From: Streptomyces sp. NBC_00775
Lineage (GTDB): Bacteria > Actinomycetota > Actinomycetes > Streptomycetales > Streptomycetaceae
Direction: 5' to 3'
Length of the DNA: 64,000 nt
NCBI RefSeq assembly: GCF_036347135.1
Contig: NZ_CP108938.1
Span: 10,230,001 to 10,294,000 of the forward strand
Shown: positions 23,731-30,468 of the stretch, one piece after another
How the letters are laid out: each line of letters opens with the position of its first letter
Position numbering within the stretch: position 1 is the first letter of the stretch
The notes under the pieces: generated by a model
What the model was told of the DNA's origin: nothing
What the model saw: the letters and a program-made list of their open reading frames with translations, nothing else
Databases searched by the model: none
Translations under genes and position numbers: made by a program

Positions 23731-24870
23731 TCAACCGAGGTGCCCGCCGGGGCCGGCCGGGCCGCCTTCCGCGTCTTCCGGCAGCGGTGTGAGGACCAGC
23801 ATGGTGACGTCGTCACGCACCGTGGTGCAGAACCGGACAAGGTCCTCCCACACGCTGTCGATCAGAGCGGCCGGCGTCTCCTCGTCGAACTTGGGCAGAC
23901 GCTCGGCCAAGGGGTAGAAGGCGCCGCTCTTGTCCCGGCTCTCCGTCACCCCGTCGGATGCCAGGAACAGCCGGTCACCGCGCTCCAGCCGGACGGTGCG
24001 CCCCTTCGGCGTGGAGACGTCCAAGAGCCCGAGACCCAGCGGAGCCCCCGGTTCGAGAGCGAGTTCGACTGCCTCCGCTCCCCGCAGAAGCAGCGGATGC
24101 GGATGCCCGCAGGACATCAGTCGCACCTCATCCGCGCCGGGCGAGAACTCCAGGAGTAGGGCGGTCGCGAACAACTCGGCGTGTTCGGTTCCCGCGGAGT
24201 CCACGACCAGCCTCCGATCGAGGCGGGCCGCGGCCGCCTCCAGCTCGGGCTGGTCGAGAACCGCCTCCCGGAACGCTCCGAGAAGCGACGCGACCGTACC
24301 GACGGCCGACAGCCCGTGTCCCTGCACATCACCCATGACGGCCCGGACTCCGTAGGGTCCCTCGCGCACCTCGAAGAAGTCGCCGCCGACCAGCGTCCCG
24401 CTCTGTGCCGCCCGGTACAGACCGGCGCAGCGCACCCGGCCGACGCGCTCGGGAAGCGGCGGCAGGACCGCGAGCTGGGCGGCTTCCGCGACGGTCCGTA
24501 CCGTGACCAGGTGGGCGTCCCGACGGCTGCGCACCAGGGACACGAACACGCTCAGCACGGCGATGAAGCTGATGGTCAGCAGGTCGGTGTTGCCCGGGTG
24601 GTTGAGCTGCAGAGCGGGCACGTTCATCAGAACGACGACGGCGCAGCCGAACAGTGCCGTCGCCACAGGCCCGTAGGAGAGCACGGCCAGCGACGGAATG
24701 GTGCCCAGCAGAAAGCCGATGTCCAGCGGCTGGCTACTCGCGAACCCCGCCGCGCAGACCCCCACCAGCAGCGCCGGCGGCAGCATCCGAACCCAGCGCG
24801 GAGGCGGCGAGCCACGCAGCCAGCCCCGCTCCTCACCGTCCCGTCGCCCGGAAGCGGCCCTGCTGGCCAT
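23731..24870 (-). CDS. Membrane SpoIIE-type PP2C phosphatase
   Basis: A 379-residue protein. The first 125 residues hold three or four TM helices (MLPPALLVGVCAAGFAS, GFLLGTIPSLAVLSYGPVATALF, ISFIAVLSVFVSLV). The rest is a PP2C/SpoIIE domain with the metal-ligand motifs GGDFFEVREG, AVMGDVQGHGLSAVG, LFLASDGVTESR and RDDVTMLVL. It should dephosphorylate an anti-anti-sigma factor; there is no sensor domain apart from the membrane part. It shares this type with the much larger phosphatase at the left end but has no anti-sigma kinase domain. Confidence 0.88.
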   Translation of the reverse strand: MASRAASGRRDGEERGWLRGSPPPRWVRMLPPALLVGVCAAGFASSQPLDIGFLLGTIPSLAVLSYGPVATALFGCAVVVLMNVPALQLNHPGNTDLLTISFIAVLSVFVSLVRSRRDAHLVTVRTVAEAAQLAVLPPLPERVGRVRCAGLYRAAQSGTLVGGDFFEVREGPYGVRAVMGDVQGHGLSAVGTVASLLGAFREAVLDQPELEAAAARLDRRLVVDSAGTEHAELFATALLLEFSPGADEVRLMSCGHPHPLLLRGAEAVELALEPGAPLGLGLLDVSTPKGRTVRLERGDRLFLASDGVTESRDKSGAFYPLAERLPKFDEETPAALIDSVWEDLVRFCTTVRDDVTMLVLTPLPEDAEGGPAGPGGHLG

Positions 24871-25050: not shown

Positions 25051-25291
25051 GGCACCCGCTGCGCGGCGCGGCGTTCTCCCATTCGAGCAAGACGACCGGT
25101 GCAGCCGGTCGAGGAACCTCGCCCGCCGCCACCGATCCATACGGCGACAGCAGGTCTGTCCGGAGTCGAACCGATGGCACCGTCGTACGCGGCGCGTCGG
25201 CGCTTCGCGAGGAGGTTGTCCGTCCACAGCGGACGATGAAGGGAAAGGGGGAGTACCCACTCCTTTCCACTCTCAACGTATAGCGCACTGG

Positions 25292-25311
25292 GGGGCTTGC
25301 GGCAAGGCCCC
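25292..25311 (+). promoter_or_regulatory. Rifamycin-associated element (RAE)
   Basis: GGGGCTTGCGGCAAGGCCCC is an imperfect inverted repeat that matches my memory of the RAE motif conserved upstream of rifamycin-inactivating genes (rgt, rph, arr, rox) and helR in actinobacteria. A TATAGC hexamer lies eight bases before it, as a possible -10. It is 58 bases upstream of the glycosyltransferase start, so it should make that gene, and probably helR behind it, inducible by rifamycins. Confidence 0.75.
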
Positions 25312-25369
25312 GGTCGTGGCGCAGAATCTCCGGCCGAGGCCAGAATCCGCGGAAATCGGGAGTCGCAGA

Positions 25370-26611
25370 GTGCGTGTGTTGTTGTCGACGTATGGGTCGC
25401 GTGGGGATGTCCAGCCGATGGCGGGACTCGCGGTGCGGTTGCGGGAACTTGGCGCGGAGGTGAGGGTCTGCGCGCCGCCGGACGAGGAGTTCGCGAAGCT
25501 GCTGGCCGGTGTCGGCGTGGAGCTGGTGCCGGCCGCCGAGCCGGTGCGCACACTGGTGACCGGGACGGCGTCACCGACACCGGAGGGCTTGCCCCAGCGC
25601 GCGGCCGCCTTGGTCGCCGCGCAGTACGAGGCGGTCGCCGCGGCGGCCGAGGGATGTGACGCGGTGGTGGCGACCGGCCTGGTCCCGGCCGTGGCCGCCG
25701 CGCAGTCGGTGGCCGAGGAACTGGGCATCCCCTTCGTGTACGTGAGCTACTTCCCGACCATGCTGCCGTCCCCGCACCACGCACCGCACGCGCTGCCGGG
25801 CCGGCCGTTCCCACCGGGCATGACCGACAACCGTGCGCGGTGGGACTGGAACGCCGAGAGCTTCAACGCGCTGTTCGGCCCCGGGCTCAACGCTCACCGG
25901 GTGTCGATCGGCCGGCCTCCGGTGGACGACGTCCGCAGCCATGTCTTCACCGACCGGCCGTGGCTGGCGGCGGACCCGGTCCTGGGTCCGTGGCAGGAGA
26001 CGGCGGACCTCGATGTCGTGCAGACCGGCGCATGGCTTCTTCCGGACGAACGCCCGCTGCCGGCCGAGTTGACGGCGTTCCTGGAGGCCGGCGCACCGCC
26101 GGTGTACGTGGGCTTCGGCAGCATGCCCATGCGCGACTCGACGGACGTCGCCCAAGTGGCCATCGAGGCGGTGCGCGCGCAGGGCCGTCGCGCCATCGTC
26201 GCCCAGGGCTGGGCCGACCTTGGCCTGATCGACAAGGGGGACGACTGCTTCGCCGTCGGCGACGTCAACCACCAGGCACTGTTCGGCCGGGTGGCCGCCG
26301 TCGTGCACCACGGCGGCGCGGGTACGACGACGACGGCCGCCCGGGCTGGCGCGCCGCAGGTGGTGGTACCCCAGATCGTGGACCAGCCGTACTGGGCCGC
26401 CCGGGTGGCCGAGTTGGGCATCGGCGCGGCACACGACGGTCCGACTCCGACCTTCGAGTCCCTGTCGGCCGCGCTCACCACCGCCCTGACCCCCGAGACC
26501 CGCGCACGAGCGAGGGCCGTGGCCGGCACGATCCGCACCGACGGGGCGACGGTGGCCGCGAAGCTGCTGCTCGACGCGGTCGGCCGAGAAAGGCCGCCGG
26601 TGCCCGCGTGA
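25370..26611 (+). CDS. rgt: Rifamycin glycosyltransferase-like GT1 enzyme
   Basis: A 413-residue GT-B-fold transferase. The N-terminal acceptor domain starts VRVLLSTYGSRGDVQPMAGL, and the C-terminal donor domain carries the GT1/GT28 signature VVHHGGAGTTTTAARAGAPQ and VDQPYWAARVAELGIG. The GTG at 25370 has GGGAG eight bases upstream. On sequence alone it could glycosylate many macrolide, glycopeptide or sterol-like acceptors. The RAE directly upstream and helR directly downstream argue that it transfers glucose to the C23 hydroxyl of rifamycins, as described for Rgt. Confidence 0.8.
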   Translation: MRVLLSTYGSRGDVQPMAGLAVRLRELGAEVRVCAPPDEEFAKLLAGVGVELVPAAEPVRTLVTGTASPTPEGLPQRAAALVAAQYEAVAAAAEGCDAVVATGLVPAVAAAQSVAEELGIPFVYVSYFPTMLPSPHHAPHALPGRPFPPGMTDNRARWDWNAESFNALFGPGLNAHRVSIGRPPVDDVRSHVFTDRPWLAADPVLGPWQETADLDVVQTGAWLLPDERPLPAELTAFLEAGAPPVYVGFGSMPMRDSTDVAQVAIEAVRAQGRRAIVAQGWADLGLIDKGDDCFAVGDVNHQALFGRVAAVVHHGGAGTTTTAARAGAPQVVVPQIVDQPYWAARVAELGIGAAHDGPTPTFESLSAALTTALTPETRARARAVAGTIRTDGATVAAKLLLDAVGRERPPVPA

Positions 26612-26801
26612 ACCACGCGGGATCGTCGAGCCAGGACCCAGAACACGAGAACCTGCGATCCCTGGCGACCTGGACCGGCTACGGCCGCGGAGTCCACCTC
26701 GGGCGGAGCGTCGCTCGTCATGTCCGCCAGGTTCGTCACGCCGGTCCAGACCCCCTGCCGCACGCAATGGTCGCAAGTGACCTCAGATCGGAGCCCATCA
26801 C

Positions 26802-28955
26802 GTGAACCCCCTGACCACCAGGGCGTTTGACCTTCCCGACCACCTCTCCGCAAAGGGCGACCCGACGCTGATCGCCGGCGACGACCAGCACTTCGCGGCC
26901 ATCGCGGAGTGCCTTGAGCAGTCGATCGCCGAGCTGTCCGACCGCCTCGAAGCCGCGCGCAGGGCGCCCGGAGGCCTGGGCCGGCAAGGGATGGACCGGG
27001 ACATGGAGATCCATCGGCTGACCGCTCGCCTGCGCGCGCTGCGCCGCTTCGGTTTGGACCTGTGCCTCGGACACATGGTCGGCGTGGACGACCCCGAACC
27101 CGTGTATGTAGGACGACTTGGCCTTACGGACAGTGCGGGTCGTCGGCTGCTGGTCGACTGGCGCTCGCCCGCGGCCGAACCGTTCTTCGGAGCCACCCAC
27201 GGCAACCCGATGGGTTTGGCGAGCCGCCGCAGGTATCGCTGGACCGGCGGCCGGATCAGCGACTACTGGGACGAGGTGTTCACCTCGGACGGGATTGTGG
27301 GGCACGCCGCGCTCGACGACCAGTCCGCTTTCATCGCCAGCCTGGGCAGCAACCGGTCGCCACGGATGCGAGACGTGCTCGGCACCATCCAGGCCGACCA
27401 GGACGCCATCATCCGCGCGGGATCCCGCGGCGCTCTTGTCGTCGACGGCGGTCCGGGTACCGGGAAGACCGTCGTCGCCCTGCACCGCTCCGCCTACCTC
27501 CTCTACTCCGATCCTCGCCTCGGTCACCACCGGGGCCGCGTCCTGTTCGTCGGACCGCACCGGCCCTACTTGGCCTATGTCGCCGACGTCCTCCCCAGCC
27601 TCGGAGAGGAGGGCGTGCAGACCTGCACCCTGCGGGACCTGGTCGACGAGGGAGCCGCAGCGGCGATCGAGGCCGACCCGAATGTGGCCCTCCTCAAGTC
27701 GTCCGCGCACATGGTGAAAGCGATCGAGACGGCCGTCAGGTTCTACGAGGAGCCGCCCATCAAGGGGATGACGGTCACGACCCACTGGTCCGACATCTGG
27801 CTGAGCGCCGATGAATGGGCCACAGCGTTCGAAGCGGCAGAACCCGGTACTCCGCACAACGAGGCGCGCGACCAGGTCTTGGAGGAGCTGCTCACGATCC
27901 TGGTGGACAAGCACGACGGCGACGCCCCTGATGACCTGCTCCGCAAGTCGCTGCTGCGGAACAGGGAGCTGCTCACGGCCTTCAACCGCGCGTGGCCGCT
28001 CCTCGAAGCGGCCGACCTGGTCGGAGACCTGTGGTCGGTACCCGCCTACCTGCGGATGTGCGCTCCCTGGCTCAGCCCCGATGACGTGTCGCTGCTGCAG
28101 CGCGGGGAAGCCCAGGCCTGGACGGTGTCCGACCTGCCGCTCCTGGACGCGGCACGGCAGCGGCTCGGCGACCCGGAGGCGTCCCGACGCAAGCGTCGGA
28201 ACGAGGCCGCTGTCGCCGCCGAACGCGCGGGCAGGGCCGATGTCATCGAGATCCTGCTGCGGGACACCGAGATCGACGAGAGTCAAGGCGCGGTGGGGAT
28301 GCTGCGCGGAAGGGACCTGCAGGACACCCTGATCGACGAGAGCGCACTGCCCGGCACCGAACCGGACCTGCTCGCCGGCCCGTTCGCGCACATCGTCGTG
28401 GACGAGGCCCAGGAACTGACCGACGCCGAGTGGCAGATGCTGCTGCTCCGGTGCCCGTCCCGGAGCTTCACCATCGTCGGAGACCGCGCCCAGGCGAGGC
28501 ACGGGTTCACGGAATCGTGGCAGGAACGGCTCGAACGGATCGGGCTCGACCGGATCAACCTGGCCTCCCTGAGCGTCAACTACCGGACGCCGGAAGAAAT
28601 CATGACGGAAGCCGAGCCGGTCATCCGGGCCGTGCTCCCGGACGCCAACGTGCCGACCTCCATCCGCAGCGGCGGCGTCCCCGTCGTCCACGGATCCGCT
28701 TCGGATCTGAGCTCGATCCTCGACACCTGGCTCGCCGCACATGCCGACGGGATCGCCTGCGTCATCGGCGATCCCACATTCCGCACGACGTCCCGTGTCC
28801 GGGCGCTGACCCCGGAGCTTTCGAAGGGGCTCGAGTTCGACCTGGTCGTCCTCATCGACCCAGAGGCGTTCGGCAAGGGCATCGAAGGAGCGGTCGACCG
28901 CTATGTCGCGATGACCCGGGCGACCCAGCAACTCGTCATCCTCACGAGCTCCTGA
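26802..28955 (+). CDS. helR: HelR: HelD-like ATPase that recycles RNA polymerase and protects it from rifamycin
   Basis: A 717-residue SF1 (UvrD-like) ATPase. An N-terminal coiled segment (ECLEQSIAELSDRLEAARRA) is the arm that enters the RNA polymerase channel. Then LLVDWRSPAAEPFFGAT, Walker A GGPGTGKT at 216-223, Walker B VVDEAQELTDAEW near 530, SVNYRTPEEI, and the final motif YVAMTRATQQLVILTS. This is the HelD/HelR family: it displaces bound rifamycin and frees stalled polymerase. GTG 26802 has GGAG nine bases upstream. It follows rgt by 190 bases with no terminator between, so both probably respond to the RAE. Confidence 0.88.
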   Translation: MNPLTTRAFDLPDHLSAKGDPTLIAGDDQHFAAIAECLEQSIAELSDRLEAARRAPGGLGRQGMDRDMEIHRLTARLRALRRFGLDLCLGHMVGVDDPEPVYVGRLGLTDSAGRRLLVDWRSPAAEPFFGATHGNPMGLASRRRYRWTGGRISDYWDEVFTSDGIVGHAALDDQSAFIASLGSNRSPRMRDVLGTIQADQDAIIRAGSRGALVVDGGPGTGKTVVALHRSAYLLYSDPRLGHHRGRVLFVGPHRPYLAYVADVLPSLGEEGVQTCTLRDLVDEGAAAAIEADPNVALLKSSAHMVKAIETAVRFYEEPPIKGMTVTTHWSDIWLSADEWATAFEAAEPGTPHNEARDQVLEELLTILVDKHDGDAPDDLLRKSLLRNRELLTAFNRAWPLLEAADLVGDLWSVPAYLRMCAPWLSPDDVSLLQRGEAQAWTVSDLPLLDAARQRLGDPEASRRKRRNEAAVAAERAGRADVIEILLRDTEIDESQGAVGMLRGRDLQDTLIDESALPGTEPDLLAGPFAHIVVDEAQELTDAEWQMLLLRCPSRSFTIVGDRAQARHGFTESWQERLERIGLDRINLASLSVNYRTPEEIMTEAEPVIRAVLPDANVPTSIRSGGVPVVHGSASDLSSILDTWLAAHADGIACVIGDPTFRTTSRVRALTPELSKGLEFDLVVLIDPEAFGKGIEGAVDRYVAMTRATQQLVILTSS

Positions 28956-29009
28956 CACCCGCACCGCTCCGCTAACATGTTCGAACTCACGGCGAGTGTC
29001 TTGATCGTC

Positions 29010-29052
29010 CGCCCTTCATGCCGGAAAACCATGCCATCCGGCATGAAGGGCG
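29010..29052. terminator. Terminator after helR
   Basis: A perfect 15-bp stem CGCCCTTCATGCCGG with its complement and a 13-base loop, 54 bases beyond the helR stop. It closes the rifamycin unit. AT-rich sequence follows it directly. Confidence 0.8.
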
Positions 29053-29091
29053 ACCAATGTAACCAACATCTACAAATCGGCCAAACGACAA

Positions 29092-30468
29092 TTGATATCT
29101 ATAGCGTCGCGGATATTTTCGCGAATAAAGTGCAGAACTCCGTTCGCCGCGTGGCGTCAACCGCGGGCGATGCTGTGGGCCACGGCGGGTGTGGTGGCAC
29201 TCGGATTCCTCATCATTCTGGAGATCGTCGCGCGTCGCTACGGCCTGCCGGGGCCGATCACCAACCAGGTGCGAGAGCTGATATTCGCCCCCAAATCGGG
29301 GCCGCTGTTGTACGCCAGTATGGCGTTGATGATGGTGGTGCTCACCTGGCGACAGCGGTTCATCGCGGCTGGTGCCGCGATCGGTATCGATGTCGTCTTC
29401 GCGCTGGTGCGGTGGGCGGTCGACGCCAGGACGACCGACGGCCAGCCCTTCGGTAACGGCGCGTTGTGGGTGATTCTGGGCTGCGCGGTCATCGCCGTCA
29501 CCCGCCGCACCGGCCGGGAACGTGTCCTGCTGCTGAAGGGCGTCGGGCTGGCCCTGCTGCTGGTGGCCGGCCGTAAGACCGGCGACACCTGGCTACTCGT
29601 CACCTCGAAGACCCGCCCAACTGTGCTCGACCAGTACGTGGCTACCGCCGATCACGCGCTGGGCAACCCGTCGTGGCTGGCAGGCCGGGTTGTCGAGGCC
29701 ACCGGACCGATCGGCGCCCATGTTCTCGACTACGTCTACGTTCAGCTCGCGGTGGCCGCGGTCGTCGTCGCGCTGTACCAACTGCGCAACGTGGCGGTCG
29801 AGCGCCGCTTCCCGCGCCATCATCTGGTGCGCACCTTTCTGGTCATCGGCCTCCTCGGGCCGGCCATCTACATGATCTTCCCGGTGGTCGGACCGGTCTT
29901 CGCCTACGGCACCGGCGCCTTCGGTACTGGCGGCGGGCACTGGCCGGTGGCCAACCTGTGGCCGGACACGCCGCCGCCGCTCACTACCCCGCACCCGATG
30001 CCGTTCGACGAGATCACCCCACGCAACTGCATGCCCAGCCTGCACACGGCGTGGGCCACCGTGATCTTCGTTCATTCCCGCAAAGGGCCACGGATTCTGC
30101 AATGGGCGGGCGCGTTCTGGCTGATCGCCACGCTCAGCGCAACGCTGGGATTCGGCTACCACTATGGCGCGGATCTCATTGCCGGCGTGGTGTTCGCGCT
30201 CACGATCGAGGCGGCACTGCGCGCGCACGACCGCGGCTGGGACCGGCCGGGAATCCAGCTGGTCACCTACGGCGCAACGGTCTTCGCCGCGCTCTTGGTG
30301 TCCTATCGCTATCTGCCGATGGAGATGGCCCAACATCCGTGGGTGGCTGGACCACTTCTCCTTCTGGCGATGACCTCAGTGGTCCACCGCTACGTACGGA
30401 CCACCAAAATGTGGGAACCGAAGGCCGCACCGGTACGGCAACCGGAACCGCAACCCGAACTGGTGTGA
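29092..30468 (+). CDS. PAP2-family membrane phosphatase/phosphotransferase
   Basis: A protein of up to 458 residues with about ten TM helices. The PAP2_3-type active site appears as NCMPSLHTAW and GFGYHYGADLIAG, which carry the catalytic His residues of the superfamily that includes inositol-phosphorylceramide synthases. Lipid phosphate removal or phosphodiester transfer is expected. The start is unsure: TTG 29092 keeps a basic N-terminus, ATG 29170 starts at the first TM helix, and neither has a good Shine-Dalgarno. The 5' region is markedly AT-rich for this genome, suggesting acquisition. A Pro/Glu/Gln-rich tail ends the protein. Confidence 0.8.
   Translation: MISIASRIFSRIKCRTPFAAWRQPRAMLWATAGVVALGFLIILEIVARRYGLPGPITNQVRELIFAPKSGPLLYASMALMMVVLTWRQRFIAAGAAIGIDVVFALVRWAVDARTTDGQPFGNGALWVILGCAVIAVTRRTGRERVLLLKGVGLALLLVAGRKTGDTWLLVTSKTRPTVLDQYVATADHALGNPSWLAGRVVEATGPIGAHVLDYVYVQLAVAAVVVALYQLRNVAVERRFPRHHLVRTFLVIGLLGPAIYMIFPVVGPVFAYGTGAFGTGGGHWPVANLWPDTPPPLTTPHPMPFDEITPRNCMPSLHTAWATVIFVHSRKGPRILQWAGAFWLIATLSATLGFGYHYGADLIAGVVFALTIEAALRAHDRGWDRPGIQLVTYGATVFAALLVSYRYLPMEMAQHPWVAGPLLLLAMTSVVHRYVRTTKMWEPKAAPVRQPEPQPELV

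Follow-up and report, generated by a model that had tools for sequence, protein, structure and literature searches.

At a locus where one regulatory element stands ahead of two genes of the rifamycin-resistance type, the question arises whether both genes are switched on together and how the drug could be sensed there. We addressed this question in a stretch of 64,000 nucleotides (hereafter the window), which covers positions 10,230,001-10,294,000 of the single-contig genome of Streptomyces sp. NBC_00775 (11,096,612 bases). It carries a rifamycin-associated element (RAE), an rgt-like glycosyltransferase gene and helR, one behind the other. RAE, Rgt and HelR are already known; what is new is the proposed operon and the predicted two-way module around the RAE. 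Our analysis indicates that positions 25242-28955 of the window are likely a rifamycin-resistance operon under one RAE-centred two-way module, for which we propose a working model with RNA polymerase sensing the drug.

Organization of the locus

The RAE (Spanogiannopoulos, 2014) is described as a palindrome of 19 bp in PMC10719064, PMC8655204 and PMC10194278. In the window it lies at 25292-25311 (no strand assigned) and reads GGGGCTTGCGGCAAGGCCCC, which is the sole exact copy in the 11.1-Mb genome. When up to three mismatches were allowed, the genome gave 9 matches and the backwards control 7. Four of these nine matches were the window site and G000:C1:2312665 (two mismatches), each found on both strands, and only these two sites stand out. 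A longer pattern (TATAGCGCAC plus the RAE) matched exactly the same two sites in the genome and nothing in the control. The rgt-like gene, encoding 413 aa, occupies 25370-26611 on the plus strand, with its GTG start at 25370, 58 nt past the RAE, and its stop codon at 26609-26611. After a gap of 190 nt (26612-26801, plus strand), helR runs on the same strand from GTG at 26802 to TGA at 28955 and encodes 717 aa. By direct reading, Shine-Dalgarno-like GGGAG/GGAG motifs stand 7-8 nt ahead of both starts, that of helR being GGAG at 26790-26793. The gap contains no detectable second RAE, no terminator-like site was found by a scan of 25100-29300, and folding of the gap was not unusual (z -1.1). An earlier note on this DNA had described a 20-bp inverted repeat matching the RAE 58 bases before an Rgt-like gene, with helR following without a terminator. 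The identity of the element, its distance and the lack of a detectable terminator were borne out, but the repeat is not perfect: CTTGC-G-GCAAG is flanked by GGGG and, one extra base later, by CCCC.

Distribution of the RAE-rgt-helR arrangement

A HelR-type gene was present in 126 of 199 Streptomyces genomes; one of these, a partial gene at a contig edge (G017), was set aside, and upstream DNA was examined for the other 125 helR loci. At 32 loci rgt lay directly upstream on the same strand and at 91 no intact rgt was found there; one of the other two had a divergent rgt with its own RAE and one a broken rgt. The rgt-helR gaps of the 32 operons were 20-332 nt long and none contained an RAE at up to two mismatches, whereas 86 of the 91 loci without intact rgt (solo helR) had an RAE within 600 nt of helR (Fisher p 1e-24). 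The five exceptions were L092, L143 and L127, with the RAE at 1096, 743 and 1646 nt, L068, which has no RAE, and L113, which starts at a contig edge. At L127 (G005:C1:1062609-1066449) the order is RAE, rox, 138 nt and helR, with the RAE before rox and none in the gap. This is a second kind of shared RAE operon, so that helR can also follow a rifamycin gene other than rgt under one RAE. A second set of 109 loci, drawn from named genomes and from across the class and partly overlapping with the genus set, gave a similar picture: none of its 20 operons had an RAE in the gap at up to two mismatches, and 81 of its 89 solo helR genes had one within 600 nt. Outside Streptomyces, RAE-rgt-helR was found in Actinomadura craniellae and in one member of another family (f9). 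The spacing between RAE and rgt was mostly 56-61 nt across relatives. The RAE-headed unit proposed in the earlier note thus recurs in dozens of genomes: the gene order is unchanged, a single RAE precedes rgt by about 58 nt, and helR has none in front of it.

Remnants of rgt in helR leaders

Many solo helR genes were preceded by pieces of rgt. From 30 rgt loci we built a nucleotide profile covering codons 1-60 of rgt, and applied a threshold of 10 bits. The profile matched 28 of 91 helR leaders in the genus; in the second set the count was 32 of 83. There was no match in the reverse complements or in 20 codon-block shuffles per set. The matches began 57-66 nt past the RAE, as intact rgt does, with two exceptions (L207, which begins at 83, and L107, an internal match). 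After identical leaders had been dropped (174 to 170), a tblastn search with Rgt proteins at E 1e-4 or better found remnants in 46 of the 170 distinct leaders and in neither control. No remnant was seen in 76 leaders shorter than 110 nt, which are too short to tell; the fractions were 2/19 at 110-160 nt, 25/48 at 160-250 nt, 14/21 at 250-600 nt and 5/6 above. Remnants occurred in Streptomyces, Streptosporangium (L191, L196), Nonomuraea (L192, L211), Planotetraspora (L193, L199), Microtetraspora (L180, L207), Micromonospora (L212) and Actinopolymorpha (L237). The L192 leader retains Rgt residues 1-40, 239-291 and 347-411 and the L211 leader residues 1-63, 148-274 and 363-413, in both cases collinear. 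L186 has a remnant as well, though its contig ends after 380 nt.

Because of these remnants and of at least 26 changes between operon and solo helR in a HelR tree of 211 rows (218 minus 7 without an RAE), we conclude that rgt has been lost repeatedly between RAE and helR, with helR generally persisting behind the old rgt promoter. As many solo helR leaders are rgt fossils, helR would have been served by the rgt promoter, which was usually kept after rgt decayed; since the leaders were defined by having an RAE, its retention has to be weighed with the exceptions L068 and L187. The opposite order of events, in which solo helR is older and rgt was inserted later, is disfavoured by the collinear remnants, while the HelR tree alone gives no direction. 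Six leaders (L085, L053, L089, L102, L106 and L114) retain some 36 rgt codons as an uninterrupted frame ahead of helR. Such a piece may be a neutral relic or may encode a leader peptide. These open frames are what speaks for regarding the remnants not as rgt fossils but as a leader peptide of independent origin or a conserved element close to the promoter. However, internal and 3' Rgt pieces in collinear order (L192, L211) and frame breaks or a stop in other remnants (L175, L143) make that explanation highly improbable. At L053/L203 (G157, Streptomyces sp. PKU-EA00015) a fossil-leader helR is divergent to a near-full-length rgt, and each has its own RAE.

The rgt remnants between RAE and helR also support co-transcription of rgt and helR in the window, and we regard it as very probable that RAE-rgt-helR is one operon. 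It might be argued that helR is a mere neighbour of rgt and is transcribed separately from a promoter in the gap, which at 190 nt is long enough for one and is partly conserved in close relatives (86-88% in two). This seems quite improbable, as the RAE is missing from all 32 gaps, some gaps are merely 20-45 nt long, and after rgt decay the RAE and the rgt leader usually remain before helR (exceptions L068 and L187). A scan of the gap also detected no sigma-70-like site, though the same scan misses the promoters proposed here at the RAE.

Some related loci showed further rearrangement. At L054 (G040:C1:9395194-9395505) helR is immediately followed by part of a second copy of rgt (residues about 214-318), which suggests duplication or recombination around the operon. 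An RAE-helR unit was found on Streptomyces nigrescens plasmid SNP1 (L205, AP026074.1), and an 89% identical Rgt-like protein (P0003) is encoded on a plasmid of Streptomyces sp. NBC_01136. Because of these plasmid occurrences, RAE-helR and rgt-like units may be mobile.

The RAE as core of a predicted promoter module

When 24 rgt and 170 helR upstream regions were aligned on the RAE, ACTCTCAACnTATAGCGCAC was found in common before the RAE, a CAGAAT-type hexamer 10 nt after it, and an inverted repeat further upstream. These sequence features point to the RAE as the core of a two-way promoter module of about 90 bp, and all of them are present in the rox copy of the window's genome. The earlier reading of RAE and rgt-helR was supported; it had overlooked the larger, apparently two-way module of about 90 bp and how widespread the arrangement is.

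A 32-letter pattern of the module matched 84 sites in 44 of 51 genomes and none in the control. For the 31 sites examined, the next gene was rgt in 12, helR in 7 (one behind an rgt remnant), rox in 8 and an rph-type gene in 4, the rph-type identity having been checked for two of the four on N-terminal halves. On this count (no control matches, 51 genomes, 31 of 84 sites examined) the pattern looks like a precise finder of rifamycin-resistance genes. The window's genome has two RAE modules, heading rgt-helR and rox. The second, G000:C1:2312652 (L171), precedes rox (1624-3087 of L171), whose product passes the NCBIfam cut-off for rifampin monooxygenase (850 bits versus 800). As judged from these genes, the strain would have three rifamycin defences in two RAE units.

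Two back-to-back promoters are predicted within the module, with the RAE as their common core. The rightward one, for rgt-helR, has a predicted -35 hexamer TTGCGG at 25297-25302 and a predicted -10 hexamer CAGAAT at 25322-25327, both on the plus strand. The leftward one has a predicted -35 hexamer TTGCCG at 25300-25305 and a predicted -10 hexamer TACGTT at 25275-25280, both on the minus strand. Each -10 is 19 nt from its own TTG-type hexamer inside the RAE, and the two halves are mirror-symmetric about the centre of the palindrome. We compared 234 modules for which the sole criteria of choice were the RAE core and the presence of rgt or helR downstream; they comprise 31 rgt, 166 helR and 37 distant helR modules. 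The last came from 40 distant loci (L288 had too little flank, and L303 and L351 had no module) and span 13 family codes. Twelve rox/rph modules, picked with a TATAGC-containing pattern, stand outside the 234 and were added where 246 modules are given. A minus-strand TANNNT at -12 to -17 was present in 230/234 modules, and at any other offset from -40 to +5 a leftward TANNNT occurred in at most 6/246. On the plus strand, NANNNT at +30 to +35 was found in 233/234 modules and CANNNT in 221, with TANNNT in none. Because the leftward -10 is nearly always TANNNT and the rightward never, the leftward promoter should be the stronger one by consensus. The leftward -10 was also kept in 21 of the 25 modules without TATAGC, with distant forms such as TATCCT and TATGGT. 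On this comparison the leftward promoter is probably real. TATAGC itself (-13 to -8) had been considered as part of a rightward promoter; this was rejected, as a rightward TANNNT never occurs there (0/246) and in distant taxa its letters vary, whereas the leftward -10 is retained in most cases.

The leftward promoter does not appear to serve a constant divergent gene, since by a crude guess from open reading frames and third-position GC content (GC3) the upstream neighbour was divergent in 83 cases, tandem in 65 and undecided in 28. In the window, a SpoIIE-type phosphatase gene (23731-24870, minus strand) points away from the RAE at a distance of 400 nt, and it is possible that the leftward promoter of this copy belongs to it.

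A hairpin on the predicted leftward RNA

At the start of the predicted leftward RNA, the window has a hairpin at 25242-25268 (minus strand), which is a predicted terminator. By eye its stem has 9 pairs including one G-U (25242-25250 with 25260-25268), and the predicted fold has an outer stem of 7 pairs at -13.1 kcal/mol. Across modules the hairpin begins from about -22 on the leftward strand. Fold z-scores below -2 were obtained in 148/246 modules versus 13/246 for an upstream control, and a hairpin with at least four T in the next nine bases in 150/246 versus 10/246 for a same-strand control. On these patterns, transcription from the leftward promoter is predicted to stop at a terminator-like hairpin after no more than about 40 nt.

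The arms were compared in 216 modules with TATA in place (of 435 counting both registers and strands). Of 92 modules that share one register, 42 have C-G as their third pair and 38 have A-T; within the window's genome this pair is A-T in the rgt copy and C-G in the rox copy. In a covariation set of 19 sequences (18 chosen out of 32, mostly with visible hairpins, plus the window), 94.5% of cells pair versus 84.1% in shuffles, and both sides changed in 14 versus 3.7. That the upstream inverted repeat is a protein operator is disfavoured, since a change in one arm is matched by a change in the other, even when the two modules compared belong to a single genome.

The two proteins

Rgt1438, reportedly described by Spanogiannopoulos in 2012, is said to belong to family NF000354. 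The window protein is similar to this family model over its full length and scores 547 bits, below the equivalog cut-off of 800; it is therefore named Rgt-like. It is also helR-linked, unlike the ten best-scoring NF000354 loci examined. Ten relatives score 512-541 bits, and no match in the 199 genus genomes reaches the cut-off, the best having 708 bits. The best relative in the PDB is GtfB (1iir, E 8e-147, 493 bits). In a tree of 71 family members (fasttree), which oversamples helR-linked loci as many were found through helR, the top NF000354 scorers form one clade nested among helR-linked relatives. The glycosyltransferase is predicted to inactivate rifamycins.

The enzyme might instead act on another natural product; its place in the RAE regulon would then be accidental or relate to a different inhibitor of RNA polymerase. 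The score below the cut-off, the closeness to GtfA, GtfB and GtfD of glycopeptide assembly, with GtfB as the best solved relative, and the source names of several relatives (vancomycin aglycone glucosyltransferase) would agree with this. However, an RAE lies at most 220 nt upstream in 34 of 40 rgt-family loci examined, and most of them have the same spacing. The proteins that score best against NF000354 (up to 708 bits) fall inside the same tree and have an RAE at 57-59 nt, and the remaining modules examined precede only rifamycin-type genes. We therefore consider another substrate unlikely.

The second protein, HelR, passes the curated cut-off of NF041254 (1289.6 bits versus 750) and aligns over nearly its full length with Mycobacterium smegmatis HelD (6yxu, E 2e-96). 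It carries DWRSP in the aligned region and has no class III insertion, in agreement with the rule for class II HelD, a DWR[A/S]P motif, given in PMC8655204. One RAE lies ahead of rgt-helR and none in the gap, as would be expected for a HelR gene or operon with an upstream RAE. HelR is thus assigned to the ATPases that recycle and protect RNA polymerase, and is predicted to strip rifamycin from the enzyme. Four more HelD-type loci were found in the genome (G000:C1:3325259, 5942922, 6660771 and 5827564; L010-L016), with 30-42% identity to HelR in matched segments, and the module pattern had no match at any of these four. Only one rpoB was found (G000:C1:4290845-4294153, L346-L348), and its rifampicin-resistance region presumably has the wild-type form. 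After helR, a gene for a PAP2/DUF5933 protein follows at 29092-30468 on the plus strand.

Relation to known systems

The RAE described in Actinobacteria resembles the element studied here in being a palindrome upstream of rifamycin-resistance genes, which here are rgt, rox, rph-type genes and helR. It was described as a 19-bp palindrome, whereas here it forms the middle of a module of about 90 bp with a leftward promoter signature and a hairpin. Solo RAE-helR systems of Streptomyces venezuelae and Mycobacterium abscessus (Surette, 2022; Hurst-Hess, 2022) reportedly have the same protein family with an RAE in front, but the window helR has no RAE of its own and stands behind rgt. Decayed-rgt leaders are found in many solo helR of the genomes examined, a set without S. 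venezuelae and M. abscessus.

The closest parallel is the dual-promoter alarm at helD/pps of Bacillus subtilis (Sudzinova, 2026). According to PMC12802891, helD is restrained there by an antisense promoter that is the stronger one, has a 19-bp spacer and gives a terminated antisense RNA, until sub-inhibitory rifampicin disables this promoter. The predicted module would match the antisense promoter, the 19-bp spacer, the better -10, the terminated antisense RNA and the helD-type target, and in both models no regulator is needed. However, the promoters of B. subtilis are convergent, while those predicted here are divergent and overlapping, with one palindrome as common -35. On the RAE, the same 2026 paper states that the mechanism "remains to be elucidated", and it puts forward an unknown factor. 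In the open literature accessible to our search, which did not extend to the primary RAE, Rgt and HelR papers (these may mention linked rgt-helR), we found no report of an rgt-helR operon, of rgt fossils in helR leaders or of a leftward RAE promoter.

Possible working of the switch

In the model that we propose, one RAE-centred module would drive the rgt-like gene and helR through the rightward promoter (-35 TTGCGG, -10 CAGAAT). Without drug, the leftward promoter would capture RNA polymerase at the common RAE and keep the rightward one quiet. Sub-lethal rifamycin would block productive leftward firing and free the rightward promoter. RNA polymerase itself would then be the drug sensor, and as it could occupy the RAE for only one of the two promoters at a time, the switch would need no regulator. 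The data show the anatomy of the locus, its conservation, the gene order and the rgt fossils; that both promoters fire, that they form a switch, that rgt and helR are co-transcribed and what the two proteins do are all deduced from DNA and comparison, and we put polymerase as the sensor at close to, and slightly below, an even chance. More tentative still is the general form of the proposal, namely that across Actinobacteria the RAE may be a palindromic -35 common to two back-to-back promoters, with the leftward one as a self-terminating decoy and polymerase as sensor, and that rgt-helR may be its ancestral client, many solo helR having arisen by rgt loss.

Several observations weigh against these readings. 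The consensus promoter scan of 25100-29300 detected neither proposed promoter. The window hairpin is modest (z -1.5, 17/200 shuffles as good, poor U-tract), and at distant loci only 13/37 modules had z below -2 and 15/37 a hairpin with a U-tract. Two of five covariation measures do not exceed shuffles (4 pairs with a double change versus 2.6, and 8 pair types versus 7.8, which is no excess). L068 and L187 have a 3' rgt remnant and no RAE in 1,500 and 3,000 nt of upstream DNA, respectively, and their helR may have another promoter or be silent. The glycosyltransferase stays below the equivalog cut-off, as noted above. In M. smegmatis, according to PMC12802891 and PMC10719064, the two mapped helD promoters are both sense-oriented; this disagrees with a leftward promoter in that species and is a real difficulty for a universal claim. 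A partial deletion of the RAE abolishes helD induction (Hurst-Hess, 2022, as cited in PMC10719064), and this effect fits an activator site equally well. The weakest step is that the sequence does not explain why drug-bound polymerase on the leftward promoter opens rather than blocks the common -35.

With somewhat less than an even chance, the RAE is instead the operator of a rifamycin-responsive transcription factor that activates the rightward promoter, the leftward one being a by-product or the source of a small regulatory RNA; the operon reading would stay the same. The RAE is palindromic, as dimer sites are, its outer arms (GGGG/CCCC) are conserved beyond what a -35 hexamer needs, and two papers put forward a rifampicin-responsive factor (PMC10719064, PMC12802891). 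On the other side, what is conserved agrees with promoter elements on the two strands at mirror-symmetric 19-nt spacing, and the hairpin differs in its letters but still pairs, even from one module of the window's genome to the other, unlike a protein operator. No candidate regulator came up either, though no systematic search was made.

Implications

The rgt fossils explain the long leaders of many solo helR genes, and the operon in the window would pair drug inactivation and target protection under one switch. The module offers a concrete, regulator-free answer to how Actinobacteria may sense rifamycins via the RAE. If true, it would unify the actinobacterial RAE with the dual-promoter alarm of Bacillus.

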